A stretch of DNA of 41,571 nt, taken from the IMG/VR virus record IMGVR_UViG_3300033998_000451, positions 1 through 41,571 of that record, one strand, 5' to 3'. The first letter of the stretch is position 1. Every line of letters starts with the position of its first letter. The position numbers were made by a program, and so were the translations under genes. Below, piece by piece: positions 1,845-15,217 of the stretch. The stretch comes from a virus. The notes under the pieces were generated by a model, which saw only the letters and a program-made list of their open reading frames with translations, was not told the origin of the DNA and searched no databases.

Positions 1845-2084
1845 TCACCGCCTTGCTCTTTCTAATAGCTCATCAATTTTAGCCTCCTGCCGGGTAAGGC
1901 TTATCTGAATAGCCTGGACCACAGCCGTCACTTGCTCCAAGGCTTTTGTATTGTTCTGCACTACCTCCGCCAGGTTTATCTCATCTCTGCGCTCAATCCA
2001 GCGACTAATAATATAGATAAGCCCAGCTACGGCGAAAAAAGCAATGCCGTACTGGGCGAGTTCAGGGCCGGGCATAGGCGTCAC
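1845..2084 (-). CDS. BhlA/XhlA-like holin-associated membrane protein
   Basis: A 79-residue protein with one membrane segment (residues about 10-27, YGIAFFAVAGLIYIISRW), a charged hinge (IERRDE) and an amphipathic, coiled-coil-like C-terminus (AEVVQNNTKALEQ...EAKIDELLERARR). This architecture matches small BhlA/XhlA-type lysis proteins of Gram-positive phages. It overlaps the end of the reverse transcriptase gene by 4 bp, so it is translationally linked to the retroelement although functionally part of the lysis cassette. Confidence 0.55.
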   Translation of the reverse strand: MTPMPGPELAQYGIAFFAVAGLIYIISRWIERRDEINLAEVVQNNTKALEQVTAVVQAIQISLTRQEAKIDELLERARR

Positions 2085-3154
2085 CTCCCGGGTTGGCGTT
2101 GTTTTTTCTCATCGGCATCCCCTCCTCTTGTTAATACAAAGTTTTCGAGCAGCTTTCGCCGCAAATTGTAGCTATTAGCATGGCTCACATGCCCGAGCCA
2201 GGATTGGATTGTCGCGTTAATCTTATCTAAGCTAATACGGCCTTCCCGAAACTTACGCTGGAAAGCCTTGAGCTTCCGCTTCATCCTTTTTATGCTGGAC
2301 TTCCTAACCAACCTATGTGTTGGCCAAATACGATACCCAAGAAAGTCAATTCCCTGGCTAATAGGCCATACTCCTGTTTTGTCATTGAGACGTAAGTCCA
2401 GTTTATCGGCCAGAAACCCTTCGATTTCCTTCTTGACTTCCCATAGGTGCCGTTTATCCCCTCCAATAATAACGAAGTCGTCCATATAGCGCACATAGTA
2501 CCTTTCCCGAAGGACCTCCTTTACGAAATGGTCAAGTTGGTCAAGATAAACATTGGCCCATAGCTGGGAAGTCAAATTCCCGATAGGGAGACCTCTGGGA
2601 CAGTCGCTGCCATCGCCGCCGCTGTCGATAATCTCATCAATCAGCCAAAGGGTATCAGGACAGGTAATCCGTTTCCTGATTATAGCCTTCAAGATGGCAT
2701 GATTAATGCTCGGGAAGTATTGGGCTATATCTCCTTTTAAGCAGTAAACACGCTCCCATTTACGCTGCGCTATACGAAGAAACTGCGTTACCCTATCCGC
2801 GCCGGCATGGGTACCTTTGCCAACCCTACAGGCGTAACTATCATAAATAAACCGGGACTCAAAAATTGGCTCAATGATGTTGCAAAGGGCATGTTGCACC
2901 ACTCGGTCCTTGAATGGCAATGCAGCGACTAATCTGGTCTTGGGGTCATGAACATAAAAGAACCGGTACGGTCCGGTTCTGTAGGTCTTCCAAATAAGCT
3001 CGTTTTGGATTTGCAGAAGGTTCTCTTCTAAGTTTGCCGTAAAGGCAAGGACCTCTTGTTGGTACCTTTTGTTACGCCTGGCTTTCAGGTATGCTCGGTA
3101 TAAGTTTTCAAAATCATAAATGAGCGGATAGAGGTTGTTATATGTTTTCGACAA
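2081..3154 (-). CDS. Diversity-generating retroelement reverse transcriptase
   Basis: A 357-residue reverse transcriptase. The visible motifs follow the retroelement order: palm Asp in CLKGDIAQYFPSI (about 139-150), RGLPIGNLTSQLWAN (about 187-201) and catalytic YMDDF (223-227), then LNDKTG and DFLGYRI. The IG-x3-SQ form of motif 4, in place of the QG-x3-SP of retroviral and group II intron enzymes, is characteristic of DGR reverse transcriptases and is linked to adenine infidelity. No maturase, RNase H or endonuclease domain is present. The start is TTG 3154 behind GGGGGTGAGG. It lies downstream of target, avd and TR, the BPP-1 order. It copies TR RNA into mutagenised cDNA that replaces VR. 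Confidence 0.96.
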   Translation of the reverse strand: MSKTYNNLYPLIYDFENLYRAYLKARRNKRYQQEVLAFTANLEENLLQIQNELIWKTYRTGPYRFFYVHDPKTRLVAALPFKDRVVQHALCNIIEPIFESRFIYDSYACRVGKGTHAGADRVTQFLRIAQRKWERVYCLKGDIAQYFPSINHAILKAIIRKRITCPDTLWLIDEIIDSGGDGSDCPRGLPIGNLTSQLWANVYLDQLDHFVKEVLRERYYVRYMDDFVIIGGDKRHLWEVKKEIEGFLADKLDLRLNDKTGVWPISQGIDFLGYRIWPTHRLVRKSSIKRMKRKLKAFQRKFREGRISLDKINATIQSWLGHVSHANSYNLRRKLLENFVLTRGGDADEKKQRQPGR

Positions 3155-3332
3155 TTCCTCACCCCCATTGAGGGCGGTAGCGGATGATTTTCACCTTGCA
3201 AGGTTACTTACCACCCGCTACCTGTTTATGTTTTTTGCCGGCCAGACAAGCTGGCGCGACAAGGAACCGGGTTCCTTTGCCTGCGCACTGGACGAAACCC
3301 CGTAGGGTTTCGACTTCTGGCTTGCCAGGCAG
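3155..3332 (-). ncRNA. Structured spacer between TR and reverse transcriptase, 3' part of the DGR template RNA
   Basis: This non-coding stretch follows TR in the template RNA. It contains nested short hairpins: CGAAACCC/GGGTTTCG with a 4-nt loop (3293-3312), AAGGAAC/GTTCCTT with a 3-nt loop (3271-3287) and GCCAG/CTGGC (3241-3255). In BPP-1 the comparable spacer, about 140 nt, is needed for cDNA priming and for Avd-RT binding. The equivalent role here is inferred from position and structure. The RT ribosome binding site lies at its 3' end. Confidence 0.65.
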
Positions 3333-3450
3333 AGCGGCGCGGAAGCCGATGTTGCCGTTCCAGTTGCCGACCGGATTGTTCAGGTTCAGAGCGAACGCAG
3401 CCCGAGCATTGGCCCCATTGTTCCAGTTCCCGCCACGGAGAGCGACCCGC
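3333..3450 (-). repeat. DGR template repeat (TR)
   Basis: A 118-bp near-copy of the end of the tail-protein gene, located between avd and the RT gene. Read in the same frame as VR it carries ten Asn codons (AAC/AAT): GGN-W-NN-GAN ... LN-L-NN ... GN-W-N-G-N. Against VR there are 12 mismatches, every one at a TR adenine on the minus strand, and about nine adenines remain unchanged. TR is the invariant donor of sequence information. AAY codons mutagenised at both adenines become NNY, which gives 15 amino acids and no stop codon. Confidence 0.97.
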
Positions 3451-3479
3451 GCATTGCAACCCGGCCCCTACAAAAAGCT

Positions 3480-3812
3480 TCAGCGCATGGATTTCATCCA
3501 TCCGCCAAGCATTTTGCCTATCTCGTTAAGCATTGCAGCCCAGTTTTCGTATTTCTTAAACGGTAGAAAGCCGAGCTGCATAGCCAACCGTATAAGCGAG
3601 CGCAGGTAATCGAGTTCCACGTCCATTTCTTGAAACGTGGTCTTTTTATAATACTTCTTGTTGGCAGCGATAATGAGGTTGAGGAGCCTATACATCGACT
3701 TTTTAATGTCAGCCGCCAAAGTATAACGCTCGCTTTTGGGGAACTGGCGAAGAGCGGTATAGCCGTAAGCAATCATGTCTTCGCACTTTTGTCTTATCTT
3801 TAACTCCTGCAT
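3480..3812 (-). CDS. avd: Avd-like accessory protein of the DGR (four-helix bundle)
   Basis: A 110-residue, mostly helical, basic protein (QKCEDMIAYGYTALRQFPKSERYTLA ... MYRLLNLIIAANKKYYKKT ... LDYLRSLIRLAMQLGFL ... WAAMLNEIGKMLGGW). This is the pattern of the Avd/23S-rRNA-intervening-sequence four-helix-bundle family. In BPP-1, Avd forms a pentameric barrel that binds reverse transcriptase and template RNA and is essential for mutagenic retrohoming. It lies between the target gene and TR; its 3' end is 29 bp from TR and probably forms the 5' part of the template RNA. The ribosome site is AGGAG, close to ATG 3812. Confidence 0.9.
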   Translation of the reverse strand: MQELKIRQKCEDMIAYGYTALRQFPKSERYTLAADIKKSMYRLLNLIIAANKKYYKKTTFQEMDVELDYLRSLIRLAMQLGFLPFKKYENWAAMLNEIGKMLGGWMKSMR

Positions 3813-3835
3813 TTCTCCTACCTCTAATTTCGGAT

Positions 3836-3863
3836 TGGGGGCTTCGCTATCGCTCCGCCCCCA
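3836..3863 (-). promoter_or_regulatory. GC-rich hairpin/cruciform downstream of VR (candidate DGR target-site element)
   Basis: A 7-bp stem (3836-3842 with 3857-3863, core GGGGGC/GCCCCC) encloses an inner GC/GC pair with a GATA tetraloop (3846-3853). Between the two helices lie purine stretches GGA and GAA that could stack as G-A mismatches. In BPP-1 a hairpin downstream of VR with a GRNA tetraloop is required for efficient retrohoming, and GATA fits that consensus. It lies about 38 bp past VR, in the gap between the target stop codon and avd. No T run follows on the minus strand, so a terminator is less likely. Confidence 0.6.
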
Positions 3864-3888
3864 GATTACCAGAATTTCAGATTTCAGA

Positions 3889-5436
3889 TTACAAACTTAA
3901 AGCGGCGCGGAAGCCGATGTAGCCGATCCAGAAGCCGACCGGAGAGCTCAGGTCCAGAGCGAACGCAGCCCGAGCACCGGCCCCATTGCTCCAGGTCCCG
4001 CCACGGAGAGCGACCCGCTGGCCTTTCCAACGCGCCCAGAAACCGTCTTTCCATTCCTCATTGCCACTGGAGTTTACAGTGGCTGGCAAGGCTAGGGCGG
4101 CCAACTCAAGCTCAGTACGCATTGTGAGAAACTTACCAAACTGCCAAGCTCCGTAGTTAGTGTCTGTCGAGGCTGCATCATTGTTACTCATCTGCGGCGA
4201 AATGCACGCAAACTTCACGCCCTGGGCATGGGCGGCAATAGTAGAACCGTTAGCTCCACGATTGACCGTCAGCTGATTACCGTTTACCGCCGTTACCGTC
4301 ATTTGTTCATTCTCAACTTGTAGTACATCCCCGACCGCAGGACCAGTCTTACCAGGCCCCAAGACTAGCTTCGAATATGTGAAAGTAGCGGGGTTAGTAG
4401 TATTGTTCAGGCCGCTATCCGCAATGACAGCACTATATCCACCCGGAATCAGGCAGTAGTCGGTCATCTGGATTACCTGTGCTCCGTTCCCGTGAGGGCC
4501 GGCGGTGGTGCCTTCTTGACCTCTCTGGCAGCCTGTTAGGGTATAGGTGCCGTTGCCGTTATTAACAAAATTACTATACCTTACGTACTCATCGGTGTTA
4601 GTTCCCTCAGCCTTAATTAACACCAAGCCATCGGTAGCGGGCCAGAGCTCCGGGTTCTGCACGTTAGCAATAACTATGGCGGTATCGGTGGCAGTTATGC
4701 CGTCTGCGTCCTGGATAACAGCGGTTTTCTTTGCTGTGTAAATGCCGGTATCTATGGTAAAGTCGATAAACTCCCAAACGTTACCTACCAGGTCAAATAC
4801 TCCATTAGCCATGCCATTGTGAGACCAGCTAATCGGACCCGTACCTGTTAGAACACGTGCAACCTGATTGCCGTAGTAAGGATAACCAGAGCTCCCCGGC
4901 GTACCGCCTATTGAAACGTCAGGTACCCCATAGTATTCAAAGCTGTTCGGGTCTCTAATATCACGGCCATAATAATTGTTACCGCGTACATCGTGTCCCA
5001 GGAGCCTGATGAGAAAGGCCAGGGTAGCCCATTCCTTCATAGTCATAAGGTGGCAGGATACACCATTGATTTTGCGGTTCTCGCACGCCTTCTTTGCATT
5101 GTCTAGAGTTATTTCCGTCCAGGGTACCTTGCCGGGTAAAGATACCGCCACATCCGTGGTAGACCCAGCAGTAATGGTCGGATTGGCACCGATACCCCTT
5201 GAAGTGCTGGTCGCATTCTTGTGGCTACATTGGTACTTGTCAACAAAGAATCCGCCTAAAAGCAAATCCTGGGGCGGGAACTGCCCATTATCCCAAATCC
5301 CGGCTGGGATGCGGAACTTGGGAATATAGACCATTTGGGTTAGGGCTCCATCATCGGTTTTAAAGGTTACCTCCCTGGTGCCTGCGTTAATCTGGTCACG
5401 TAACGCTGCTAAACTAAGCTTCGAGATATTGGGCAT
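3889..5436 (-). CDS. DGR target: tail-associated protein with C-type-lectin/FGE-sulfatase fold
   Basis: A 515-residue protein, probably the diversified receptor-binding tip of the phage tail. Its N-terminal half has formylglycine-generating-enzyme-like features (GGFFVDKYQCS, CHLMTMKEWATLAFL, GVFDLVGNVWEFID). The C-terminus (residues about 449-515; WARWKGQRVALRGG ... IGFRAALSL) is the lectin-fold core with the diversified residues at 473-512. Between these parts sit two beta-rich modules of similar pattern (about 255-325 and 365-425; VLIKAEG...EYVRYS and VLQVENEQMTV, each ending in G-x-H-G/AQG). It starts at ATG 5436 behind GGAGG. The FGE fold is used only as a scaffold in DGR targets, so no enzymatic role is proposed. 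Fibre genes lie immediately upstream. Confidence 0.92.
   Translation of the reverse strand: MPNISKLSLAALRDQINAGTREVTFKTDDGALTQMVYIPKFRIPAGIWDNGQFPPQDLLLGGFFVDKYQCSHKNATSTSRGIGANPTITAGSTTDVAVSLPGKVPWTEITLDNAKKACENRKINGVSCHLMTMKEWATLAFLIRLLGHDVRGNNYYGRDIRDPNSFEYYGVPDVSIGGTPGSSGYPYYGNQVARVLTGTGPISWSHNGMANGVFDLVGNVWEFIDFTIDTGIYTAKKTAVIQDADGITATDTAIVIANVQNPELWPATDGLVLIKAEGTNTDEYVRYSNFVNNGNGTYTLTGCQRGQEGTTAGPHGNGAQVIQMTDYCLIPGGYSAVIADSGLNNTTNPATFTYSKLVLGPGKTGPAVGDVLQVENEQMTVTAVNGNQLTVNRGANGSTIAAHAQGVKFACISPQMSNNDAASTDTNYGAWQFGKFLTMRTELELAALALPATVNSSGNEEWKDGFWARWKGQRVALRGGTWSNGAGARAAFALDLSSPVGFWIGYIGFRAALSL
3901..4018 (-). repeat. DGR variable repeat (VR) at the 3' end of the target gene
   Basis: The 118-bp region encodes residues 473-512 of the target. 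Compared with TR it has 12 substitutions, all at TR adenines: Asn becomes Thr, Ser, Gly, Asp, Ser, Ser, Phe, Ile and Tyr at nine codons, and one Asn codon stays AAT. C, G and T positions are all conserved. The invariant GC-rich end (3901-3919, reading GGCTTCCGCGCCGCT on the minus strand) is the likely initiation-of-mutagenic-homology segment, where cDNA integrates. Confidence 0.97.
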
Positions 5437-5835
5437 TTATACCACCTCCGGTAAGGGAAATACTATTACCTGCACATCGGCGGCCTCCAAATTAAGGGGC
5501 ACCGGCACCGATTTGTAGATGGTCGTGCCGTTCTGGTCAACTTCATTTGTGGGCACGCTCTCATATCGCTGTGGAGGCAGGATTACTTCTACAAGTAACC
5601 AAAAGTGGTCGCGGTTTATGTCAGTTGAACAAAAGTGGTCGCGGTTTATGTCAGTTGAAAGCGAACCGTCTTCTTCAAGGTAAAGCCTGAATGCCTTACC
5701 TTGATACGGCTCCAGGTCGAACGTGCCGCCGGCACAATTAATTGAGCCTGCCGAAAATGGAACTACAACCAACTTATTGGCCGCAAGTCTAATAGCCTCA
5801 TTGGGTTTGCTGGGGTCATGTTGAATAATCACCAT
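5437..5835 (-). CDS. Hypothetical tail protein with a 10-residue tandem duplication
   Basis: A 132-residue protein of unrecognised family lying between fibre genes and the DGR target. It has predicted beta structure throughout (KLVVVPFSAGS, FRLYLEEDGS, LLVEVILPPQRYES, DVQVIVFPLPEVV). The decapeptide STDINRDHF-C/W is present twice in a row, from an exact in-frame 30-bp tandem duplication. The gene ends one base from the start of the target gene, so the two are translated in tandem. It may be a fibre chaperone or a small connector for the target protein; this is inferred from position only. Confidence 0.7.
   Translation of the reverse strand: MVIIQHDPSKPNEAIRLAANKLVVVPFSAGSINCAGGTFDLEPYQGKAFRLYLEEDGSLSTDINRDHFCSTDINRDHFWLLVEVILPPQRYESVPTNEVDQNGTTIYKSVPVPLNLEAADVQVIVFPLPEVV
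5601..5660. repeat. Two tandem 30-bp direct repeats within a tail gene
   Basis: Units 5601-5630 and 5631-5660 match at 29 of 30 positions (AAAAGTGGTCGCGGTTTATG and following). Being 30 bp long they keep the frame and duplicate ten residues. The near identity implies a recent duplication or an active slippage site. Confidence 0.95.
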
Positions 5836-5849
5836 CTATCCCTCCTAAA

Positions 5850-6287
5850 TCAGGTAATCAGTTGATAACGGAATGCGCCGGTGAATCCACCTGTATTGTA
5901 AACAGTAAAGGCATTGGCAGCCTTCGAGACCCATACATCCCCTAAATCTCCTTTGGTGTCAGCCAGGGGAATGACGTTCACAATATAGTTCGTATGTCCC
6001 AGGTTATGCGTAATGGTGCGACCAGACGTGCTATTGAAAGTGCTCTCACCTTGCAGCGTTTGGGTCTCCAGGGCGTCCAGTCTCGCATCCAGATTTGCGT
6101 ACCCTCCGCGAGCGGTTGAAACTTCGCTTTGTAAGGCATCTAGCTGCTGTTTAAGATAGAGAGTACGGTTGGCGAGTTGCTTATGTGGGCGGTTATCAAT
6201 GCCGTCCGGGCCGCCTTGCACCGGGTCGGTCGCTTCAATCTGGTATATACCGCTTTCCCAGACTGCGCTTTCAGTGATATTTGCCAT
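5850..6287 (-). CDS. Tail fibre-like protein
   Basis: A 145-residue protein. The N-terminus (SGIYQIEATDPVQGGPDGIDNRPHKQLANRTLYLKQQ, cited here in part) has the 'N-x-PHKQLANRTLYLK' pattern frequent at the start of phage tail-fibre and collar proteins. A short coiled coil follows (LDALQSEVSTARGGYANLDARLDALE, residues about 51-75), then a beta-rich C-terminal head (ITHNLGHTNYIVNVIPLAD ... FTVYNTGGFTGAFRYQLI). The coiled coil suggests a trimer. It sits in the fibre cluster between baseplate genes and the DGR target. Confidence 0.7.
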   Translation of the reverse strand: MANITESAVWESGIYQIEATDPVQGGPDGIDNRPHKQLANRTLYLKQQLDALQSEVSTARGGYANLDARLDALETQTLQGESTFNSTSGRTITHNLGHTNYIVNVIPLADTKGDLGDVWVSKAANAFTVYNTGGFTGAFRYQLIT

Positions 6288-6300
6288 TAAAGGTCACCTC

Positions 6301-6747
6301 CTAAATGTAGATGGTCCAAGAGCCTTCTATTTCAACATCAGCATCTTTGACAATGGCCCCCGTCCTTGTGCGGCGGGCAAATAAGGTGCCGTCGGCAGCA
6401 ATGAGACCAAACTCTACGATGTTTTTCCCGTTTGCCTCGCTCTCCAAAATAATGAAATCGAAGCGTACTGTCTGCGGGTCAACATAGGTAAACCCGCTCA
6501 GCGGCTTCACAAAAGCGGATGTAATCTGCGTATCGCTGCCACTGGGAGGGGTTGAGTTAGTCCCTACTGCTATCTGTGTTATCTTTGGCAAGGACCCGGC
6601 TCCCTCGGCCAAAAGCTTTGCTATTCGCTGGCGCGGGAGGTTCACGATAAGGTTTTTATCCTGCCATTCTTCCACAACCTTCCCACGCCGGCGAACTACT
6701 ATTTTTAGCTCGCCTTGCAGCGGTATAACGTCAGTAGCCTTCTCCAT
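6301..6747 (-). CDS. Tail/baseplate fibre-associated protein
   Basis: A 148-residue beta-rich protein. It has the pattern seen in phage tail-collar fibre N-terminal regions: ITQIAVGTNSTPPSGSDT, VRFDFIILESEANG, NIVEFGLIAADGTLFARR and a terminal EGSWTIYI. It probably links fibres to the baseplate or forms part of the fibre base. It is placed between the gpI-like protein and the fibre gene, and its start ATG lies behind GGAGGTG. Family assignment is by recollection of the EFGL-x3-DG-x-LFARR pattern. Confidence 0.6.
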   Translation of the reverse strand: MEKATDVIPLQGELKIVVRRRGKVVEEWQDKNLIVNLPRQRIAKLLAEGAGSLPKITQIAVGTNSTPPSGSDTQITSAFVKPLSGFTYVDPQTVRFDFIILESEANGKNIVEFGLIAADGTLFARRTRTGAIVKDADVEIEGSWTIYI

Positions 6748-6759
6748 TTTTTCACCTCC

Positions 6760-7746
6760 TTAAGCCGCGAGCACTGGCTGGCGTTTCCTACGGACGGTAA
6801 GAGTCATGCCGTCACCGGCCACACCATGCTTAATAGTGCCATCGTGCGTCCTGGAGCCGCCATAAGCTATTGCTCCGTTATGGAGCAGGGCGCAATCGCC
6901 ATACCATGCCCAACCCATTTGCCTTAGTCCTACTCCGACATGGGTCTCACTGCCATCGTAAAAATATAAGGGTTGTCGTAACAAGCTGCCAGTGTGCCTA
7001 TACCTTTCCCCGCCGTGCGTTAATGGTGCGTATCCCTCTTCCCCAAAGGACCGGTCGGTTATCCTGCTTGCAAGCTCAAGTCTTGGTGGTGCATCGCCCT
7101 CGATAGCCGGACCATAGCTGCCGGTGCGAGCATCTCCGTTGTGCCATCTTCTGTCGCCAAGAAGAAGGTGTTGAATTTTTGTGCGAATATGACTTAATCC
7201 TATGCTTTCACTTAAATTCAACTTATCTTCGGTTGCCAATAACAACCCTATCGCGGCAAGGACCATGTGAGCGGGGGCAACCTCTTCTGTAATGGCAATA
7301 ATTTCTGCTTTATCCGTTGCAGTAAAAGAGCGCCATTCTTCTAAATCGGTCTTTATCTTGTAGTGCGCCCACCAGGCTGCCTCTCGAACGCCGTTATCGT
7401 GGTACTGGGTACCATCGTATAGTGGCCTTGGACTTTGCTTTATCATCTCTTCTACTTTCGCATTCACAAACCCCAGGACTTTTAAGGCATTGCTTAAGTC
7501 TTGTACAGTAATACCACCGGAAGCCCTGAGCCTTGAGAGCACTCGCGCTTTCCGAAGTTCCAATGGAGCTTCCGGCGTCGAAGACAACCCCACTTGCTGC
7601 TCCCAGAATTCTACCCCCCATGTCGAGGTTAACAAGAAAAGCTGAGATACCACATCGTCCAACGCCGCAAAAAGGTCTTCAATCTGCACATCTGCCGCTT
7701 CTAATAAGGGCAGTAACTTTTCATGCTCCCATGGAAATAGGGGCAT
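6760..7746 (-). CDS. Tail protein, YmfQ/gpI-like N-terminus with a C-terminal extension
   Basis: A 328-residue protein. Residues 1-110 match the baseplate-associated YmfQ (DUF2313)/phage tail protein I type (WGVEFWEQQVGLSS, RKARVLSRLRASGGITVQDLSNAL). The remaining 200 residues contain repeated short beta strands rich in Gly, His and Tyr (DRRWHNGDARTGSYGP, THGGERYRHTG, LHNGAIAYGGSRTHDG), suggesting a fibre-like or carbohydrate-facing extension fused to the baseplate module. It follows gpJ in the canonical gp25-J-I order. The length exceeds that of stand-alone gpI (about 180-200 residues). Confidence 0.75.
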   Translation of the reverse strand: MPLFPWEHEKLLPLLEAADVQIEDLFAALDDVVSQLFLLTSTWGVEFWEQQVGLSSTPEAPLELRKARVLSRLRASGGITVQDLSNALKVLGFVNAKVEEMIKQSPRPLYDGTQYHDNGVREAAWWAHYKIKTDLEEWRSFTATDKAEIIAITEEVAPAHMVLAAIGLLLATEDKLNLSESIGLSHIRTKIQHLLLGDRRWHNGDARTGSYGPAIEGDAPPRLELASRITDRSFGEEGYAPLTHGGERYRHTGSLLRQPLYFYDGSETHVGVGLRQMGWAWYGDCALLHNGAIAYGGSRTHDGTIKHGVAGDGMTLTVRRKRQPVLAA

Positions 7747-7759
7747 TTCTCATACCCCC

Positions 7760-8824
7760 TTAAGCAACTGTTATCTGTACTTGCCCTAGCTGGGCAATCT
7801 GGTCGGGCGCAAGCGTAATATTAGATGTTGGGGCAGCCAACGTGTAATCTTCCACACCCTGCACACCAAGAATGGTGCTGCCTATTGCTGTTGGCCTGAT
7901 TATTCCACCAATGGGAATTGAAGCGATATAAGCCGCCAGGGCACTATTGATGTTATTGATTACCTCGTACTGAGAGTAGCCAGAAGCTATCATCACTGTT
8001 GCCGTAATATTCACTTGCAGCACCTGTGGGGCGATTACCCGCACATCGGCTCCCAGAGGCCGGCGCTCTTCGATATACGCTTGTACCTGTTGCAGGAATT
8101 GCTCATCCGGTAAGCCGCTTTGGGTAATTACCAATACATCAACCGTTCCGGGACCACGTGCAGCCGGTATGCATTTTGCTACTTTTGCTCCGGCGGCCTG
8201 GGCCCACGTTTCATAATCACGTTTCGTACCACCGCGTATCGGATTCTTGATAGTGGCCATAATTCTTTGTCTCAGCTCCTCGTCGCTTTCTGGGTCAACC
8301 CCTCCAGTTATTCCCTCGGGGGCCACCCGCACGGTTTCAATTAGGCTTATCGCAACCCCAACCTGTTTCAACTCAACGCCGGCGGGCAGGTTATACGCTT
8401 TACCCACCGCCACAGCTTCCACTGGTACTGCTGCCTCGGTTGCTCCTTGAGGCAGTTCTGCATCCTGGGTGCTCTGGTAAACCAAATCACCATAGGCAAA
8501 CTGCGTTCCTTTGGGGATAAGTTGGCCGAATGGGGCCGGGGTGGAGCGGGACACTATCACGTTCCCTTTCGCCTTTGTACCAGGATTGCGGGTTAATCCC
8601 CACTCCCAAGCCCGCCTGTCCAGCCATTCGCCGGTGGCCTTATCAATAAAGAACTTATCAGGCACCTGGGAGATGGCATACCAGACTTCATCAAGTCCGT
8701 AGGCAAAGGCTTCTACCAACGTCCTGGCCACGGAACCGGGATTAAAATCAGTTATCCCTGCTGCTGTTAGCCGGGCAAATATCTCGTTCACTATCTGGTC
8801 AAACGTTTTGGTATTAAGCGGCAC
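7760..8824 (-). CDS. Baseplate J-like protein
   Basis: A 354-residue protein of the Baseplate_J family, a wedge component of contractile tails. Recognisable features are FNPGSVARTLVEAFAYGLDEV (in part) near the N-terminus, DKATGEWLDRRAWEWGL, then GGVDPESDEELRQRIMATIKNP with the following TKRDYETWAQA, and a C-terminal AYI-x-SIPIGGIIRPTAIG segment. It begins with GTG and overlaps the gp25-like gene by 11 bp. Length and order are typical of P2/PBSX-type baseplates. Confidence 0.93.
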   Translation of the reverse strand: MPLNTKTFDQIVNEIFARLTAAGITDFNPGSVARTLVEAFAYGLDEVWYAISQVPDKFFIDKATGEWLDRRAWEWGLTRNPGTKAKGNVIVSRSTPAPFGQLIPKGTQFAYGDLVYQSTQDAELPQGATEAAVPVEAVAVGKAYNLPAGVELKQVGVAISLIETVRVAPEGITGGVDPESDEELRQRIMATIKNPIRGGTKRDYETWAQAAGAKVAKCIPAARGPGTVDVLVITQSGLPDEQFLQQVQAYIEERRPLGADVRVIAPQVLQVNITATVMIASGYSQYEVINNINSALAAYIASIPIGGIIRPTAIGSTILGVQGVEDYTLAAPTSNITLAPDQIAQLGQVQITVA

Positions 8825-9185
8825 CGGTCGTCACCTCCCAGATAAGGTTTTCGGCCACCTGGCTTTCGATGGACACGAAGTAGATATAAAACCTGGCCGT
8901 TCTTGTTTCAGGAAAAAGCTCATAAGATACATCAACCCGCTGCACCCTCGGTTCCTGCTCCAAGCATTCCCTTATTGCTGCTACTACCCGCACGGCCCAA
9001 TCCTCGTTCATTTCCTCAGAGAGCAGGTCCCAGGCCGGGTTTCCGTAGTCAGGATGAGCAAAAAGCGCCCCTTTAGGTGTTTCCAACCGGCGTAAGATAG
9101 CGGCCTTGAGATTATCAAGCCCGTCGGTTAGCTCATAGTCTCCTTTGACCACCTCGCCGGTTAAATCTCTGCCATAAATGCTCAA
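8814..9185 (-). CDS. GpW/gp25-like baseplate wedge protein
   Basis: A 123-residue protein of the gp25-like family, which initiates sheath assembly at the baseplate. Visible features are the N-terminal DYELTDGLDNLKAAILRRLETPKGALF, the DYGNPAWDLLSEEMNE segment and EPRVQRVDVSYELFPE. The start is TTG 9185 behind GGTGGTGATG. It overlaps the downstream gpJ gene, indicating coupled translation. Confidence 0.9.
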   Translation of the reverse strand: MSIYGRDLTGEVVKGDYELTDGLDNLKAAILRRLETPKGALFAHPDYGNPAWDLLSEEMNEDWAVRVVAAIRECLEQEPRVQRVDVSYELFPETRTARFYIYFVSIESQVAENLIWEVTTGAA

Positions 9186-9206
9186 CTACATCACCACCTT
9201 AAAGCC

Positions 9207-9575
9207 TTAAAGCCGGGCAATGACCACGCCGCTGTTTATGTCGCCATTGAGGAAGACTACCACTACCTCGTCTCCGACCTTCAAGGTACCCCAATCTACT
9301 CGCTCTACAGTTCCAGTAGGTGCGCTCAATTGACTTGCAGTCCATGAACTAAAGGTACCAGGGCAAGGGATTGGAGCGGACACGCTTCCGTTTGTTGCCT
9401 CGGCATTCGATGTCGAAATAGAGGTCATCTTTGCCTTTATTTCATAGAGCAGACCTGTCGCTACCGGTATCCAGCTTGTTTCTACTCCCAAGAGCGGAAT
9501 AAAAACCTTAGCCTGGCCTTTTTGAACATCCAGCGACGTGATTATCCCAGCCTGCGGAAACGTCAACTGTGCCAT
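9207..9575 (-). CDS. Baseplate spike/assembly protein V-like (OB-fold)
   Basis: A 122-residue beta-rich protein. The repeated 'GIITSLDVQKGQAKVFIPLLGVETSWIPVAT' style (in part here) and the C-terminal VGDEVVVVFLNGDINSGVVIARL (in part) match the OB-fold of gpV/gp45-type spike and baseplate assembly proteins: functional pattern LKVGDEV-x-V-x-FLNGD. It lies between the hub gene and the gp25 gene, as in Mu- and PBSX-like tails. It is short, so any spike tip would have to be in another protein. Confidence 0.75.
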   Translation of the reverse strand: MAQLTFPQAGIITSLDVQKGQAKVFIPLLGVETSWIPVATGLLYEIKAKMTSISTSNAEATNGSVSAPIPCPGTFSSWTASQLSAPTGTVERVDWGTLKVGDEVVVVFLNGDINSGVVIARL

Positions 9576-9587
9576 AGCTTCACCATC

Positions 9588-10628
9588 CTACATCTTCTTG
9601 TTCTGATAGTTATAAAGGTCCTGGCGATACTGCTGGGCATCCTGCGGCCTTATGTTTGTCACCGAAAGGTCTACGGTATAGCCGCTAACACCAAAGCGGT
9701 GAATTGCCCGGTTAATGTAGTAGGTCCCCGAAAACCTACCAAAGCCCTCCAGGATAACCCTCTTTTCCGCCTCCAACGCAGGGTCGCCGACCACAGTCAG
9801 CTCGCCCGTGATTACCTGACGGGATAGCTCCTTCAGCCGTTTCTCGGCTTTCTCCTTTGCCTGGGCGTAGCTTTTAATCTGCGAATCGTAGATAACGCGC
9901 TCGACTACTCGGCCCATTTGCTGAATGAGGAAGTCGTCCTGGGCTGATGCTTCTATTCGCTGCTTCTTGGTCCAGTGCCGCACGGTAACCTTGTTGTATA
10001 CCCCCACGCTGGAATCGTCGAAATCAGCACTTACAACGTTCTTCTTCCAGACGTAGCGGCCCACTATCTCTGCTTCTTCGGCCCGAGGAGCGAAGACCAG
10101 TTTTTTCTCCTTCTTGACGTAGCAGACATAACCCTCACGCTCGGCGAGCTCCTGAAGCATTTTCCACTCAGTAGTATCATGAAAAATATCCCTCTCCAGG
10201 ATGTCGGTGGTCGGGGTCACCTGCGGGACCAGGCCGTGTTTTTGAGCCAGCATTTCCGCAATTTGCGATGCGGTACGTTCTGCATAGGCTATGCTGTACT
10301 CGGTATCTATCAGGTCCCGGCTAAAGTCCCGGCACATGAGGGTTACAGTTTCGCCCTCACCGGCGAAGCGGGGTTTAACCCCGTCTATTTTCCCTGCAAA
10401 GCAAAAGCGCAGTTCCTTCGCGCTCCAGCTTTGGGCGTCTTTAACGTAGCCGAGGTATAGTTTTGTCTCTTGATTTTTGCGCAGCCAATCAGAGAGCAAT
10501 TCCCGGTTGCAAAGCTCTACCTCTAACGAGTCGGCAGCAAGGTAAAGGGTGCTCTCCCAGGTCAGGCTGATGATGTCGCTCCAGCGCACCGGCACGCCGT
10601 CAATGGTGATGTAGGCTCTCGGTATCAC
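9588..10628 (-). CDS. Tail hub protein, gpD/XkdQ-like
   Basis: A 346-residue protein of the late-control D/XkdQ hub type, which forms the trimeric ring above the spike. Supporting motifs are LTWESTLYLAADSLEVEL near the N-terminus, a central AERTASQIAEMLAQKHGL, EWKMLQELAEREGYVCYVKK, and repeated beta strands to the end. It starts with GTG 10628 overlapping the LysM gene stop by 4 bp. The position between LysM protein and spike is canonical. Confidence 0.85.
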   Translation of the reverse strand: MIPRAYITIDGVPVRWSDIISLTWESTLYLAADSLEVELCNRELLSDWLRKNQETKLYLGYVKDAQSWSAKELRFCFAGKIDGVKPRFAGEGETVTLMCRDFSRDLIDTEYSIAYAERTASQIAEMLAQKHGLVPQVTPTTDILERDIFHDTTEWKMLQELAEREGYVCYVKKEKKLVFAPRAEEAEIVGRYVWKKNVVSADFDDSSVGVYNKVTVRHWTKKQRIEASAQDDFLIQQMGRVVERVIYDSQIKSYAQAKEKAEKRLKELSRQVITGELTVVGDPALEAEKRVILEGFGRFSGTYYINRAIHRFGVSGYTVDLSVTNIRPQDAQQYRQDLYNYQNKKM

Positions 10629-11215
10629 GCCGGAATCACCAGCCTTTGTCCAACCCGTAGCTTGCGCGGGTCAACTATGTTATTTGCCTCGGCTATCTCC
10701 CTCCACCTTGGCCCACTCCCAAGATACTGCTGGGCGATTGCCCACAGGGTATCACCGGGCTTGACGATATACTCCTTACTACCGCCCTGGCTTTTGGCCC
10801 CGCTCGCCTGCGTTCCGCCCCCGGTTTCTCCGGTTTGCTCCTGCACAGGCGGGGCTACTTTCGGGGGAGGCATTACTGCCAGCAGCTCAATGCTGTATTC
10901 CACTAATCCATGCCTCACGAGCTTCCAGGGAAAGTTGCGAATTATAACCTGTTTGCATAGCTCCGGGTACTCGCTTATGAAAAGCTGAACTGGCTTCCCG
11001 GCATCTTTCATGCTTTCAATCCTTATCGCCGTCTTATATGCGTTGTCGCCTACCAGGGCCCCTTCCCAACTGATGACCGTTTCCTCTTCGCCCATATCCT
11101 GATAAACAGGAGGTGCGCCAGGAATAGCGATAACAGCAACCCGCCTGGGGTTAGAAAAAGGAAGTTCCCGGCGGGGAGCAAGGGGGAACACTACATCGCC
11201 TAATGCCACTTTCAT
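10625..11215 (-). CDS. Tail protein with C-terminal LysM domain (XkdP-like)
   Basis: A 196-residue protein. Residues 1-115 are a beta-rich tail-connector domain (VAVIAIPGAPPVYQDMG, VQLFISEYPELCKQVIIRNF). A Pro/Gly/Gln linker (about 115-147) follows, then a LysM module (YIVKPGDTLWAIAQQYLGS ... LRVGQRLVIP). Proteins of this design link tube or baseplate to hub in PBSX-like tails; LysM probably serves assembly or cell-wall contact. It starts directly after the tape measure gene. Confidence 0.9.
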   Translation of the reverse strand: MKVALGDVVFPLAPRRELPFSNPRRVAVIAIPGAPPVYQDMGEEETVISWEGALVGDNAYKTAIRIESMKDAGKPVQLFISEYPELCKQVIIRNFPWKLVRHGLVEYSIELLAVMPPPKVAPPVQEQTGETGGGTQASGAKSQGGSKEYIVKPGDTLWAIAQQYLGSGPRWREIAEANNIVDPRKLRVGQRLVIPA

Positions 11216-11221
11216 CTCGCA

Positions 11222-13693
11222 TCACACTCCACGCGGACCACGGCTCTTCTTGTATTTGGCCCGCATCTCAAACCAACGCTCCAGCTCAGGTCCCAACCGC
11301 TCGGCCAGTCTTCTTGCATCGTAGTCGGGTTTACCGCTGCCTTCGATGGTGATGTTCTGTATGGTCACACTAAAATTAACCCGCTCGGACGCATTGAACA
11401 CCCCTGGGCCAACCGTTCCGCCTGCCGGCGTAAGCATCGGCCTCACCGTAGCCGCAGCCCCAGCCGCAGCCACTGCCAGGGTGGGAGAGAGCAGGGGAGC
11501 GGCGAAAGACCGAGTGATATAGTTCATTGCTGCCGCTATCTGCCCAGCCCCGGCCATGAGGCCAGAAGCATACATCCTGATAAAGTTAGGTGCCCAGCGG
11601 TCTGCGTAGCGGCCAGGGCCTTCTTCGGTTGGCGAAGAGAACCCGAGCCACGCCTTGATTTTTTCTGCTGCTCCTTTGAGAGCCTCGGGAATAGCGGCAA
11701 TGCGCTGCCTTATTCCTTCCGCAAAGCTATTGATAAGATTGCGCCCCCATTCGAGGGCCTTGCCCGGCAGCGAGCTTAGCCATCCCATTGCGGCAGCAGC
11801 AGCATCTCTGATACCATCCCAGGCTTTGCCTGCGCTTTCGCGAATAGTCTGCCAGACCCTAATCAGCCAATCACGGAAGCCCAGGAAGTTGGTCTTCCAC
11901 GCCGCTATAGCCCCAGCGATAATGGCTGTGACGCCAAGAATAATCCACCCCACGGGACCAAGGCCAATCAACCAGGCCATTGCCATGCGGGCCGCAGCAA
12001 TTAGAGCCTGGGCTGCAAGCCGTAGCAGCGTAAGCCCAAAACGCCCGGCTATCGTTATTCCCTGTAAAGCCCAGCGGCCAAATGTAGCCAATCCTTGGGC
12101 TGTGGCTCGGATTATGCTCAATCCTAACTGTCCCGCAAACCTGCCGGCGGTGATGAATGCGCTGCCCAGTCTACTTACCAATAAACCAATCCTTGTTAGC
12201 GTAGGATGCCCAAACGCAATCGCACCCCACAAGGCCCGGAAGATACCCGCTCCTTGCCGGAAGTAGTTGAAAGCATCCCAGAAGCCTTTCAGGCTGCGGC
12301 CTACTATCAGGCTTGTTTTAGCAAAGCTAAGCAACGGGCTGAAGAAAAAGCTAGCAAATATCTTTCCCATGCCCGTTAAAATTCTGAAGCCGCCCAAAGC
12401 GACGAGAACCTGGGCTATGCCTTTGGCCACTTGTGGGTTGGCTTTAATCCAGTCGGTTAAGACGTTTAGAATGTCGGTTATCCGGTCAATATAGCCCTTT
12501 ATCGCATTCATGAAGGGCGTGCCCGCTGCCGACATGAAGTTTTCCACGCTGCCCATCATGTTCTCGAATTTGGCCGCGAAGGTTTCCTGCATCATTCTGA
12601 TGCGCTCCATGAGCGGGATGGCCTTTTCGTATTGGCGGTTAATGTCCTCTATGCTACCTTCGCCTTCCTGGATAAGCGCAATGGCAGCGCGGGCCCCTTC
12701 AACGCCAAAGATATTCGTCAAAATATCCATCTTGACGTTCTCCGGTAGCCCTTGCAGATGCTTGCGTAAAACATTGATAATGTCCAGCAGTGGTTTGGCC
12801 TTTCCGCTGGCATCAAAGAAATCACGCTGAAAGTTTATGCCTATCTTTTCAAGAGCTTTGGCTGCCTCTTTTGAAGCTGGCGTAAGCCTCAACAGCATCT
12901 GGTTAAGGCTCGTACCTGCGATACTTCCTTCCATACCCCGGTTATTGAGCACCGCTAGGGCAGCTGCCGTTTCCTTTACGGTTAGCCCGAGCTGGGCCGC
13001 CGTGCCGGATACATACGTCATGCCGGCCAGGAGCGAAGGTACGGAAGCAGTGGAGGCTGCGTCAATGCGGCTCAGGATGTCGGCAACACCAACCATATCC
13101 TTGCCGGCGACTTTAAAGGCGTTCCCGATTTTGATTATCGCCTCAGCCGAAAACTCTGGCGGTATTTTAGCCGCTTGCGCGAGATACAGAGCCGCCTCAG
13201 CCCCGCCCTCCAGGACCGTTTGTAGGTTCATGCCGCCTTTTATCAGTGTGAGCATCGTCTGCCCCGCTTCCGCGCCACTGTAGCGGGTTGCTGCTCCGAG
13301 CTGCAACGCTTTCTCTTGCACTTGCTGCATGAGATTATTCAACTGGTCAGCCGGCATGGTAGTTTCGTAGATATTTGCCCTTATGTCCTGCAATACATCC
13401 TCAAGTTCTGCGGCTTTCCTGACTACCTGCTCCACCGGGGCAATCATAGCCATGCCCTCGGCTATGTCCGCCGTACCAGAGCTGCGCCACTTCTCCATCG
13501 TCTCTTGGGCCTGCTTCACGTTGTTGATAGCATTGTTAAACCACTGGTCAGAAAATAGCCCTCCGGAGACCTGCTGCTTTACATTCTGGATGGTCCTGCC
13601 CAGGCTTTCCACCTGCGCCGCAGCAGACCTTAATGCTCCGGCCATGTTATTATAGGCAGTCAGGATTAGAGCAACACTAAAGCTCGTATTCAC
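11222..13693 (-). CDS. Tape measure protein (TP901 family)
   Basis: An 823-residue tape measure protein that sets tail length and is ejected at infection. N-terminal helices (about 20-100) lead to the TP901 core (EKALQLGAATRYSGAEAGQT, ILSRIDAASTASVPSLLAGM, VLNNRGMEGSIAGTSLNQML). Several long hydrophobic stretches (about 400-600, including WLIGLGPVGWIILGVTAIIAG) follow, then GKALEWGRNLINSFAEGIRQ and an FSSPTEEGPGRYADRW motif. It starts at GTG 13693 behind AGGAGGTG. The preceding chaperone gene has a frameshift, the usual partner arrangement. Confidence 0.95.
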   Translation of the reverse strand: MNTSFSVALILTAYNNMAGALRSAAAQVESLGRTIQNVKQQVSGGLFSDQWFNNAINNVKQAQETMEKWRSSGTADIAEGMAMIAPVEQVVRKAAELEDVLQDIRANIYETTMPADQLNNLMQQVQEKALQLGAATRYSGAEAGQTMLTLIKGGMNLQTVLEGGAEAALYLAQAAKIPPEFSAEAIIKIGNAFKVAGKDMVGVADILSRIDAASTASVPSLLAGMTYVSGTAAQLGLTVKETAAALAVLNNRGMEGSIAGTSLNQMLLRLTPASKEAAKALEKIGINFQRDFFDASGKAKPLLDIINVLRKHLQGLPENVKMDILTNIFGVEGARAAIALIQEGEGSIEDINRQYEKAIPLMERIRMMQETFAAKFENMMGSVENFMSAAGTPFMNAIKGYIDRITDILNVLTDWIKANPQVAKGIAQVLVALGGFRILTGMGKIFASFFFSPLLSFAKTSLIVGRSLKGFWDAFNYFRQGAGIFRALWGAIAFGHPTLTRIGLLVSRLGSAFITAGRFAGQLGLSIIRATAQGLATFGRWALQGITIAGRFGLTLLRLAAQALIAAARMAMAWLIGLGPVGWIILGVTAIIAGAIAAWKTNFLGFRDWLIRVWQTIRESAGKAWDGIRDAAAAAMGWLSSLPGKALEWGRNLINSFAEGIRQRIAAIPEALKGAAEKIKAWLGFSSPTEEGPGRYADRWAPNFIRMYASGLMAGAGQIAAAMNYITRSFAAPLLSPTLAVAAAGAAATVRPMLTPAGGTVGPGVFNASERVNFSVTIQNITIEGSGKPDYDARRLAERLGPELERWFEMRAKYKKSRGPRGV

Positions 13694-13728
13694 GCCCGCA
13701 CCTCCTTTCTCCCGGCCTTCTTTTGCCT

Positions 13729-13748
13729 TATAATGGAATTAGGGGGTG
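13729..13748 (+). promoter_or_regulatory. Possible promoter -10 element and ribosome site of the opposite-strand gene
   Basis: A perfect TATAAT at 13729-13734 is followed by AGGGGGTG (13741-13748) six bases before ATG 13754. No convincing -35 hexamer is present 17 bp upstream (TTTCTC), so promoter strength is doubtful; the implied leader is very short. Confidence 0.35.
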
Positions 13749-13753
13749 TCTTT

Positions 13754-14047
13754 ATGTTTGAAATCATTCTCAAAGTCGTGTTGATATGTATCCTCGGCGT
13801 CGTAATATTAGCGGGCCTGGCAATTATCTTTGGCATTTCCCTCGGTATTGGCTGGATAATGGGGTCAATGCTCAACGCATTTTGGCACATTCCCATGTGG
13901 CTTGGCGTGAGCGCCATTACCATAATCGTTGCCGTGTCGATGATAGGGCCGCTTGTGGGGTGGTGGGAGGAAAAAGGCCGCCGCAGCTGGGCACCGATAC
14001 TGGCCACGCTCTGGATGTTCGACCGGATGACCAAAGGGAAGGATTGA
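13754..14047 (+). CDS. Small membrane protein on the opposite strand of the tail operon (moron-like)
   Basis: A 97-residue protein of unrecognised family with two hydrophobic segments: residues about 3-40 (IILKVVLICILGVVILAGLA, then a Gly-rich IFGISLGIGWIMG) and about 50-68 (MWLGVSAITIIVAVSMIGPL). The tail is WWEEKGRRSWAPILATLWMF. The start ATG 13754 has AGGGGGTG in front. It lies alone in the plus direction inside the minus-strand tail operon, between chaperone and tape measure, and ends at a strong terminator. That is the layout of a moron, a gene expressed independently, often in lysogens. Function unknown; membrane exclusion of other phages is one possibility. Confidence 0.7.
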   Translation: MFEIILKVVLICILGVVILAGLAIIFGISLGIGWIMGSMLNAFWHIPMWLGVSAITIIVAVSMIGPLVGWWEEKGRRSWAPILATLWMFDRMTKGKD

Positions 14048-14085
14048 ATAGGGCCGCAGATAGAAAGCGGCCCTATTCGTTTTCC
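14046..14085 (+). terminator. Rho-independent terminator after the moron-like gene
   Basis: A perfect 12-bp stem, GAATAGGGCCGC (14046-14057) with GCGGCCCTATTC (14067-14078), 9-nt loop, followed by GTTTTCC. It begins inside the stop codon region of the plus-strand gene. The same element covers the stop of the frameshifted chaperone extension (14073-14075), so it may partly attenuate minus-strand transcription ahead of the tape measure gene. Confidence 0.85.
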
Positions 14086-14554
14086 TCCTTCTCGGCCTCC
14101 AGAACCGCAGAAAATGCCTCCCACAACGCTGCCTTGACCTCTTCATCCAGCTCCAGCCACTCGTCTAGCTTTATCGCTCCAGTTACCCGCGCTATTGCGG
14201 CAAAGCGGTAGAGGTCAAGCTGTCCCGCAAAAAACGTGCAACTTCTCTGGCCTTCTCCTGCGTCTCCTGACTGCCCCCAAATAGCTCATTGAAGACCGCA
14301 GAATAAAAGTCAACGTCTTCCAGCGGCCAGCTATCGAAAAGGTAGCGGTAGTCCTCAGCAACCTTTTGCCCGTCGATTTCGACCACTACCTTGGCCTTGA
14401 GATACTGGTCAATTAAAAGCCCCGCACCAAGCAGGTTGTCTTGCGTCACCCTGAGCATACGGATAACGTCAAGCCTATCCTTGCCGGTAGGAGCACGGAA
14501 TTTAATCTTCCTCCCGCTGGGGAGCTCCAGCGGACCGTAAATTTTAGTCTCCAT
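14073..14554 (-). CDS. Tail assembly chaperone long form by programmed -1 frameshift (gpGT-like)
   Basis: Ribosomes slipping back one base at the heptamer T-TTT-TTG (14234-14228 on minus) after codon 109 would read 51 more codons to TAG 14075-14073, giving a 160-residue fusion. The extension continues with plausible protein (GQLDLYRFAAIARVTGAIKL, then DEWLELDEEVKAALWEAF) and has no start codon or ribosome site of its own. In lambda and most long-tailed phages the G/GT pair binds tape measure protein during tail assembly through exactly this kind of slip just before the tape measure gene. Confidence 0.8.
14192..14554 (-). CDS. Tail assembly chaperone short form (gpG-like)
   Basis: A 120-residue protein with the usual chaperone start (YGPLELPSGRKIKFRAPTGK) followed by a helical domain (RLDVIRMLRVTQDN ... 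DVDFYSAVFNELFGGSQETQ). It corresponds to the zero-frame product of the frameshift site and ends at TAG soon after it (SLTSTALPQ). It lies between tail tube and tape measure genes, as in other long-tailed phages. It is expected to be made in excess over the frameshifted form. Confidence 0.8.
   Translation of the reverse strand: METKIYGPLELPSGRKIKFRAPTGKDRLDVIRMLRVTQDNLLGAGLLIDQYLKAKVVVEIDGQKVAEDYRYLFDSWPLEDVDFYSAVFNELFGGSQETQEKAREVARFLRDSLTSTALPQ
14228..14234 (-). promoter_or_regulatory. -1 ribosomal frameshift slippery heptamer TTTTTTG
   Basis: Read in the chaperone frame as CG-T TTT TTG, this fits X-XXY-YYZ exactly. The downstream -1 frame stays open for 51 codons, and the zero frame stops after 11 more codons. 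Confidence 0.8.
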
Positions 14555-14567
14555 CTATTAACCCTCC

Positions 14568-14999
14568 TTAAGCCCCTTCAATACCTTCAGCTTTAAAGTC
14601 AATGTCCTCTTCCATGATGTCTTTACCTGCCTTGAGCTTTAGCCCCAGGTCGCTAATTTTGCAATTCAGTAAGCGATAACGACCGACAAAGCCCTTCTCC
14701 GGGGCATTGATGTTGACGATAATAGTAAACCTGGGCGACGGCGGAATACGGCTGCCTCGTTTCAAGGAAGACTGTCCCCAAATGCGCTTGATAATGTCGA
14801 GCAGCATATGCCCGCGCTTCAACTTGCCTTCGATTTTGATTTCGCCATCCAGAATGGCTGGGATACGCTCGCCGAGCTCCAGGTATTCTTCGGTGTCCTC
14901 CTTGATGGAGAACTCGGCTTCCTGGTAGTCTCCCACGAGCTCAGGTCCTTGGGGTCCGGTAATCAGCACCGATGCATCATAACCCTGGATTTTAGCCAC
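14568..14999 (-). CDS. Tail tube protein (XkdM-like)
   Basis: A 143-residue beta-rich protein following the sheath region. It has the typical start 'GYDASVLITGPQGPELVGDYQEAEFSIKE' (in part), GEIKIEGKLKRG, and a C-terminal RLLNCKISDLGLKLKAGKD then EEDIDFKAEGIEGA. This is the pattern of contractile tail-tube proteins. It starts at GTG 14999; its AAGGAGGTG lies within the last codons of the ferredoxin gene, with an 8-bp overlap. Confidence 0.85.
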   Translation of the reverse strand: MAKIQGYDASVLITGPQGPELVGDYQEAEFSIKEDTEEYLELGERIPAILDGEIKIEGKLKRGHMLLDIIKRIWGQSSLKRGSRIPPSPRFTIIVNINAPEKGFVGRYRLLNCKISDLGLKLKAGKDIMEEDIDFKAEGIEGA

Positions 15000-15204
15000 G
15001 CTTCTTCACCTCCTTGGTGGTTTCGGGCGGCTTAACTTCCTGTTCAATACTCAAAGCTTTGACCGGACAGGAGGCTATGCATAAACCGCACTCTACGCAT
15101 TCACCCGCTATCACCGCTTTCCCGTTCTCCAGCTTCAATGCCCCGGTGGGGCAGGCCGGGAGGCACAACCCACAGCCGGGGCAGGTATTCTTAATCTTCA
15201 GCAT
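14992..15204 (-). CDS. 2[4Fe-4S] ferredoxin encoded inside the tail operon
   Basis: A 70-residue protein with two complete C-x2-C-x2-C-x3-C-P clusters: CPGCGLCLPACP (residues 8-19) and CVECGLCIASCP (residues about 36-47), the bacterial 2[4Fe-4S] ferredoxin fold with internal two-fold repeat. The tail is a charged linker (EQEVKPPETTKEVKKRG). It begins 13 bp after the sheath stop, behind AGAGGTGAT, and its 3' end supplies the ribosome site of the tube gene, so it is fully built into the late operon. Ferredoxins carry low-potential electrons in anaerobes; in this setting either electron transfer or a structural Fe-S part of the tail is possible. Confidence 0.92.
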   Translation of the reverse strand: MLKIKNTCPGCGLCLPACPTGALKLENGKAVIAGECVECGLCIASCPVKALSIEQEVKPPETTKEVKKRG

Positions 15205-15217
15205 CGCTCATCACCTC

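Follow-up and report, generated by a model that had tools for sequence, protein, structure and literature searches.

The viral record IMGVR_UViG_3300033998_000451 of IMG/VR (positions 1 to 41,571; the whole of these 41,571 nucleotides is called the window here) carries, within positions 2081–5436, the genes and repeats of a diversity-generating retroelement (DGR). Both strands were read, and all parts of the element lie on the minus strand, in the order: target gene with its variable repeat (VR), target-site hairpin, avd, template repeat (TR), structured spacer and reverse transcriptase (RT). An earlier note, made from the letters of the DNA, had proposed a complete DGR arranged as in Bordetella phage BPP-1. 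Each component was indeed located where that note had put it, and direct reading of the BPP-1 sequence bears out the shared order.

The RT (357 amino acids, 2081–3154) matches RVT_1 (5.9e-21), phrog_1423 (4.4e-156) and the structure of the BPP-1 enzyme bRT (8ub7, E 4.7e-76). A DGR RT was recognized by an (I/V/L)GxxxSQ motif together with a YxDD catalytic site, and the protein carries IGNLTSQ and the catalytic YMDD; its start codon is TTG, preceded by the Shine-Dalgarno-like sequence GGGGGTGAGG. The accessory variability determinant Avd (110 amino acids, 3480–3812) is matched by PF22296 (bAvd, 1.3e-35), NF033474 (DivGenRetAVD, 130.5 bits for a cut-off of 80) and phrog_3206 ("Avd protein of DGR", 2e-41), so that both proteins are recognized by the profile searches which the earlier note had proposed. 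The spacer of the TR-containing RNA (3176–3334) is a full-length match to the Rfam RT-14 RNA (RF02921; 78.1 bits, the gathering score being 48.1, E 2.7e-10), in agreement with the structure claimed for it, and TR plus spacer fold with z = -2.9. Rfam files this family as a small RNA; here the match lies exactly between TR and RT, a position in which RT-14 was also located in 20 of the 35 related loci scanned. In another clade, RT-17 occupies the TR–RT spacer of two of those 35 loci (L063, 679–766; L065, 3330–3420). Both families thereby gain a probable function as DGR spacer RNAs.

The only long direct repeat in 2081–5436 is a 118-nucleotide pair formed by the TR (3450–3333) and the VR (4018–3901), the latter comprising the final codons of the target gene and terminating near its stop codon. 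The two copies are 89.8% identical. All 12 mismatches fall among the 21 adenines of the TR, as had been claimed, and none of the 97 other sites is changed; the chance of finding 12 of 12 mismatches at adenines is 3.4e-11 (hypergeometric). Read in frame, the TR gives RVALRGGNWNNGANARAAFALNLNNPVGNWNGNIGFRAA. Nine of its 10 AAY codons are altered in the VR and no stop codon is created. In a DGR the initiation of mutagenic homing sequence of the VR (IMH) is expected to differ from that of the TR (IMH*); here the final 20 nucleotides of both repeats are identical and the next base is T for the VR and C for the TR, a C/T difference that is seen in many relatives. Neither the window nor the host genome of the sister phage described below yielded a second VR.

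The target gene (3889–5436; phrog_2889) encodes 515 amino acids. A profile built from 24 homologues matches TaqVP, the variable protein of the Thermus aquaticus DGR (PDB 5vf4), in two stretches with E 7e-85; between them lies a beta insert of about 190 amino acids (residues 227–418, approximately). This insert is modelled confidently by AlphaFold2, while the C-type-lectin core is poor (mean pLDDT, the predicted local distance difference test score, 72 for the whole protein), and a Foldseek search with the model gave no match at E<0.001. For this reason the fold assignment is based on the profile match to 5vf4, from which the protein is predicted to be a C-type-lectin-fold DGR variable protein with its core split by the beta insert and its VR at the C-terminus. 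Upstream of it, genes for tail fibre and baseplate-distal proteins (5437–7746, minus strand; tail fibre phrog_3100/4209, Mu gp48-like) are found. Diversification of receptor binding is therefore the natural reading of a C-type-lectin variable protein encoded within a tail-fibre region.

Downstream of the VR lies a target-site hairpin or cruciform (3837–3862, 38 nucleotides 3' of the VR) of the form GGGGGC-GGA-GC(GATA)GC-GAA-GCCCCC, whose loop fits the GRNA consensus. Homing in BPP-1 depends on a GC-rich hairpin that follows the VR and has a GRNA loop, and in phage DGRs such hairpins are located 4–34 bp after the VR (PMC3240598). Most relatives of the window element have a perfect stem of 7–9 bp with a GATA, GGTA or GAAA loop, usually GATA, 32–41 nucleotides after the VR.

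Independent profiles or structures identify each of four parts (RT, Avd, spacer RNA and target), which supports reading the locus as a complete DGR. With a probability of about 95%, it belongs to a phage of Desulfotomaculia-like Firmicutes that is temperate and contractile-tailed, and it diversifies a C-type-lectin tail protein by mutagenic retrohoming. By analogy with BPP-1, from which we infer the biochemical steps, the avd–TR–spacer region would be transcribed and the spacer would fold as an RT-14-type RNA; RT and Avd would then make a cDNA of the TR in which the positions opposite adenines receive random bases. This cDNA would take the place of the VR in the 3' end of the target gene, helped by the hairpin 38 nucleotides downstream, so that as many as 10 codons for the ligand-binding face of the C-type lectin could be rewritten and receptor specificity would change. 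Binding of a host receptor by the target, and activity at the present day, are presumed in this scheme.

The earlier note had also held the element to be still active. The closest comparison is with a sister phage, L002 (IMGVR_UViG_2515154092_000001), whose RT is 98.9% identical to that of the window. Between the two, nonsynonymous and synonymous divergence (dN and dS) are 0.005 and 0.045 for the RT (352 of 356 amino acids identical) and 0.008 and 0.21 for Avd (108 of 110), values from which both window genes are judged to be intact and under purifying selection; at the VR end, dN is 0.19 and dS 0.16. The target DNA upstream of the VR has diverged by 11%, and in each phage the VR is identical to its own TR at all non-adenine sites of the 118-nucleotide repeat. 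A wider set of 390 related DGR loci, in which some contigs are represented twice, was treated with one script, which returned a TR/VR pair 90 nucleotides long or longer in 313 of them. Of the 7062 non-adenine differences counted between the TRs of different elements, 6794 recur between the VRs that belong to those elements. Among pairs of elements with RTs at least 95% identical, 1190 of 1367 VR differences (87%) are at TR adenines and the TRs show only 155 differences in total; these counts are descriptive, the pairs being overlapping and not independent. The VRs of close relatives, which the earlier note had proposed to search, thus differ almost only at TR adenines. Because such differences sit on template adenines while the TRs themselves hardly change, the class of related loci is considered active on its sequence pattern, and the window element very probably is so now or was recently. 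The claim of activity holds as regards the intact RT and Avd, the lack of non-adenine mismatches and the tracking of the TR by its own VR, with a caution that comes from the internal loop of the hairpin.

The window DGR is ordinary in kind, a new example of an already known class of element; the unusual part is the apparently rewritten template of the sister phage, outside the window. In L002 the TR lies at 5705–5825 and the VR at 5136–5256. Its TR differs from that of the window at 13 of 118 sites, namely 8 of the 21 adenines and 5 of the 97 other positions (p 0.0002), and all 13 changes are present in L002's own VR. At most of the codons concerned the other relatives keep AAC or AAT, and for this reason the window state is taken as ancestral at the adenines. 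With an adenine fraction of 0.107, the L002 TR is the lowest of the 313 loci (median 0.227, sd 0.032). The flanks are without such change (4 of 178 sites in the spacer, 15 of 1074 in the RT gene). Non-adenine divergence in the 5' part of the L002 TR (5 of 52) resembles that of the target gene (40 of 300) and not that of the remaining TR–RT region, although the 5'/3' split was chosen after viewing the data and its p of 0.007 is a guide only. The simplest account of what this looks like is VR-to-TR conversion, or entry of a mutated cDNA into the TR, after which homing went on as usual at the leftover adenines. Since the retained TR adenines are mutated in the VR, diversification in L002 seems to have continued past the template change, with a repertoire that would be partly frozen (from 4^21 to 4^13 possible sequences).

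Several other explanations deserve consideration. It is barely credible that the RT comes from another system (a retron, a defence-associated RT or a group II intron), with a repeat that is there by coincidence: among NCBIfam models, those for group II maturases and for DRTs or retrons give weak matches, but these stay far under their cut-offs (e.g., 151 vs 300 bits), the best matches are phrog_1423 and BPP-1 bRT, IGNLTSQ is present, and Avd together with the adenine-only TR/VR pattern refutes the idea. A fossil element, formerly active and stalled by an imperfect target hairpin or by missing host conditions, is improbable. Against the main reading, the stem of the window hairpin is interrupted by a GGA/GAA 3x3 internal loop, and in BPP-1 disruption of the stem lowers tropism switching more than 1000-fold (PMC3240598); the record also ends inside the integrase gene. 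In favour of a fossil, the interrupted form is common to the window, L002 and the Desulfofundulus prophage L005, and the template of L002 is degraded; the VRs of L002 and L005 are mutated nonetheless. Tandem G-A mismatches can be stable, which makes the imperfect stem a caution rather than a refutation. Moreover, a fossil is hard to reconcile with the lack of non-adenine decay between the window TR and VR, with the few amino-acid changes in RT and Avd relative to L002, and with VRs that track their own TRs in both phages despite diverged flanking target DNA. As for L002 itself, its adenine-poor TR might have come about by chimeric assembly, from reads of both repeats, or have been acquired from an unrelated lineage, instead of being an edited one. 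In favour, the two L002 repeats are 93% alike and the evidence comes from a single assembly (the IMG/VR record and the host genome G075 give the same sequence); on the other hand, the exact words shared at the junctions are about 10–22 nucleotides, which we infer to be shorter than usual assembly k-mers, none of the 313 relatives has such a TR, and the RT and spacer flanks are 98–99% identical to those of the window. Such an artefact or foreign origin is rather unlikely.

Whether an edited template of this kind is general can be judged in part from other lineages. Smaller, independent cases occur: the TR of L172 has lost five adenines, all of them changed from A to G; L204 and L175 have lost three each and L422 two. 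Two of the three lost in L175 are still A in its own VR, which indicates that the TR changed there without the VR as a present source. Adjacent AA-to-NN changes are found in the TRs of four lineages (L002, L172, L175 and L422). A pooled test was made on 35 independent pairs, with spacer plus RT as the control region. The single-base bias towards adenines shows no clear excess in the TR (A/non-A ratio of 2.6 vs 2.3 in the control); single-base counts thus do not show adenine-directed editing and give no proof of a general process. Adjacent AA-to-NN doubles, in contrast, are enriched in the TR (7 of 364 vs 3 of 3055 in the control, p 1e-5), and also when L002 is excluded (4 of 354, p 0.003). It may tentatively be proposed, at somewhat less than even odds, that the TR is not immutable, and that L002 and at least L172, L175 and L422 took RT-type AA-to-NN changes, by VR-to-TR conversion or by cDNA entering the TR, which delete adenines and partly freeze the repertoire. 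If real, template editing must be rare, because hankyphage TRs show no substitutions in published data (PMC6199706) and in the BPP-1 system, when reconstituted, TR–VR recombination was seldom seen (PMC12875486). No description of VR-to-TR transfer was found in the literature searched, which was largely open-access papers. If the template can be overwritten, the machinery itself may shrink or fix DGR repertoires; this would explain the locking-in of a successful binding variant, and the TR would be eroding all the time, with selection as the counterweight. What the window contributes is a DGR, complete and well conserved, from phages of thermophile-type Firmicutes; set beside L002, it makes a sharp comparative pair. 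As a separate observation, L039 and L092 have RTs 98.4% identical, yet 19 of 113 sites differ between their TRs and just one of these is the loss of an adenine, a pattern that suggests exchange of the TR/target module through recombination.

The remainder of the window is that of a temperate phage with a contractile tail, as the earlier note had supposed. A tail module (7760–16621, minus strand) encodes baseplate J, gp25 (sheath initiator), hub, LysM, tape measure and sheath proteins. A large serine recombinase (39976–41571, plus strand; Resolvase 1.6e-35, Recombinase 2e-20, Zn_ribbon_recom 1.8e-13) is the integrase, its gene truncated where the record stops on the right; a Mu-type portal and CI-like regulators are also encoded. 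Megablast of window positions 1–25000 against public phages gave no match. L002 is colinear with the window, at about 91–98% identity across most of the length. Its host genome, reached by searching the class of Desulfofundulus, carries it as a prophage integrated in a 175-kb bacterial contig (G075:C9, about 100404–140479; loci L158–L160), where it splits a ComM/Mg-chelatase-like ORF, the gene being named by eye. A perfect 30-bp tandem duplication is present at window positions 5600–5659, inside the ORF 5437–5835 (STDINRDHF is repeated); according to the alignment it is single-copy in L002. Among the related loci, a group II intron domain match occurs near the Desulfofundulus prophage DGR (L005, 7060–7130), and CRISPR repeats (CRISPR-DR2, three copies) adjoin a DGR in a viral contig (L024, 22–183).

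Among the closest known systems are the DGRs of Desulfotomaculia phages (Desulfofundulus L083, Desulfotruncus L085 and L002), whose RTs are 67–99% identical to that of the window and whose targets have the same architecture at 59–94% identity; most of them have the same spacer RNA, with the hairpin 32–41 nucleotides after the VR, and L002 departs by its loss of 8 of the 21 window TR adenines. DGRs of D. reducens and D. acetoxidans have been named before (PMC3240598). TaqVP, from a Thermus aquaticus prophage (PDB 5vf4, PMC6328139), shares with the window target the C-type-lectin fold of the formylglycine-generating enzyme type and the C-terminal VR, but its insert is shorter than the beta domain of about 190 amino acids found at that place in the window protein. 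BPP-1 (mtd-avd-TR-brt; AY029185) has in common with the window the order of target with VR, avd, TR and RT, the adenine-only TR/VR differences, a VR placed at the very 3' terminus of the target, a GRNA-loop hairpin after the VR, though with an interrupted stem in the window, and an RT whose homology extends along the entire protein (42.9% identity). The two differ in that the BPP-1 VR is of 134 bp with the hairpin 4 nucleotides after it, against 118 and 38 nucleotides in the window, and in that the BPP-1 target is Mtd and that of the window a TaqVP-like C-type-lectin protein with an insert. Finally, BPP-1 is short-tailed, unlike the window phage, whose tail is contractile.

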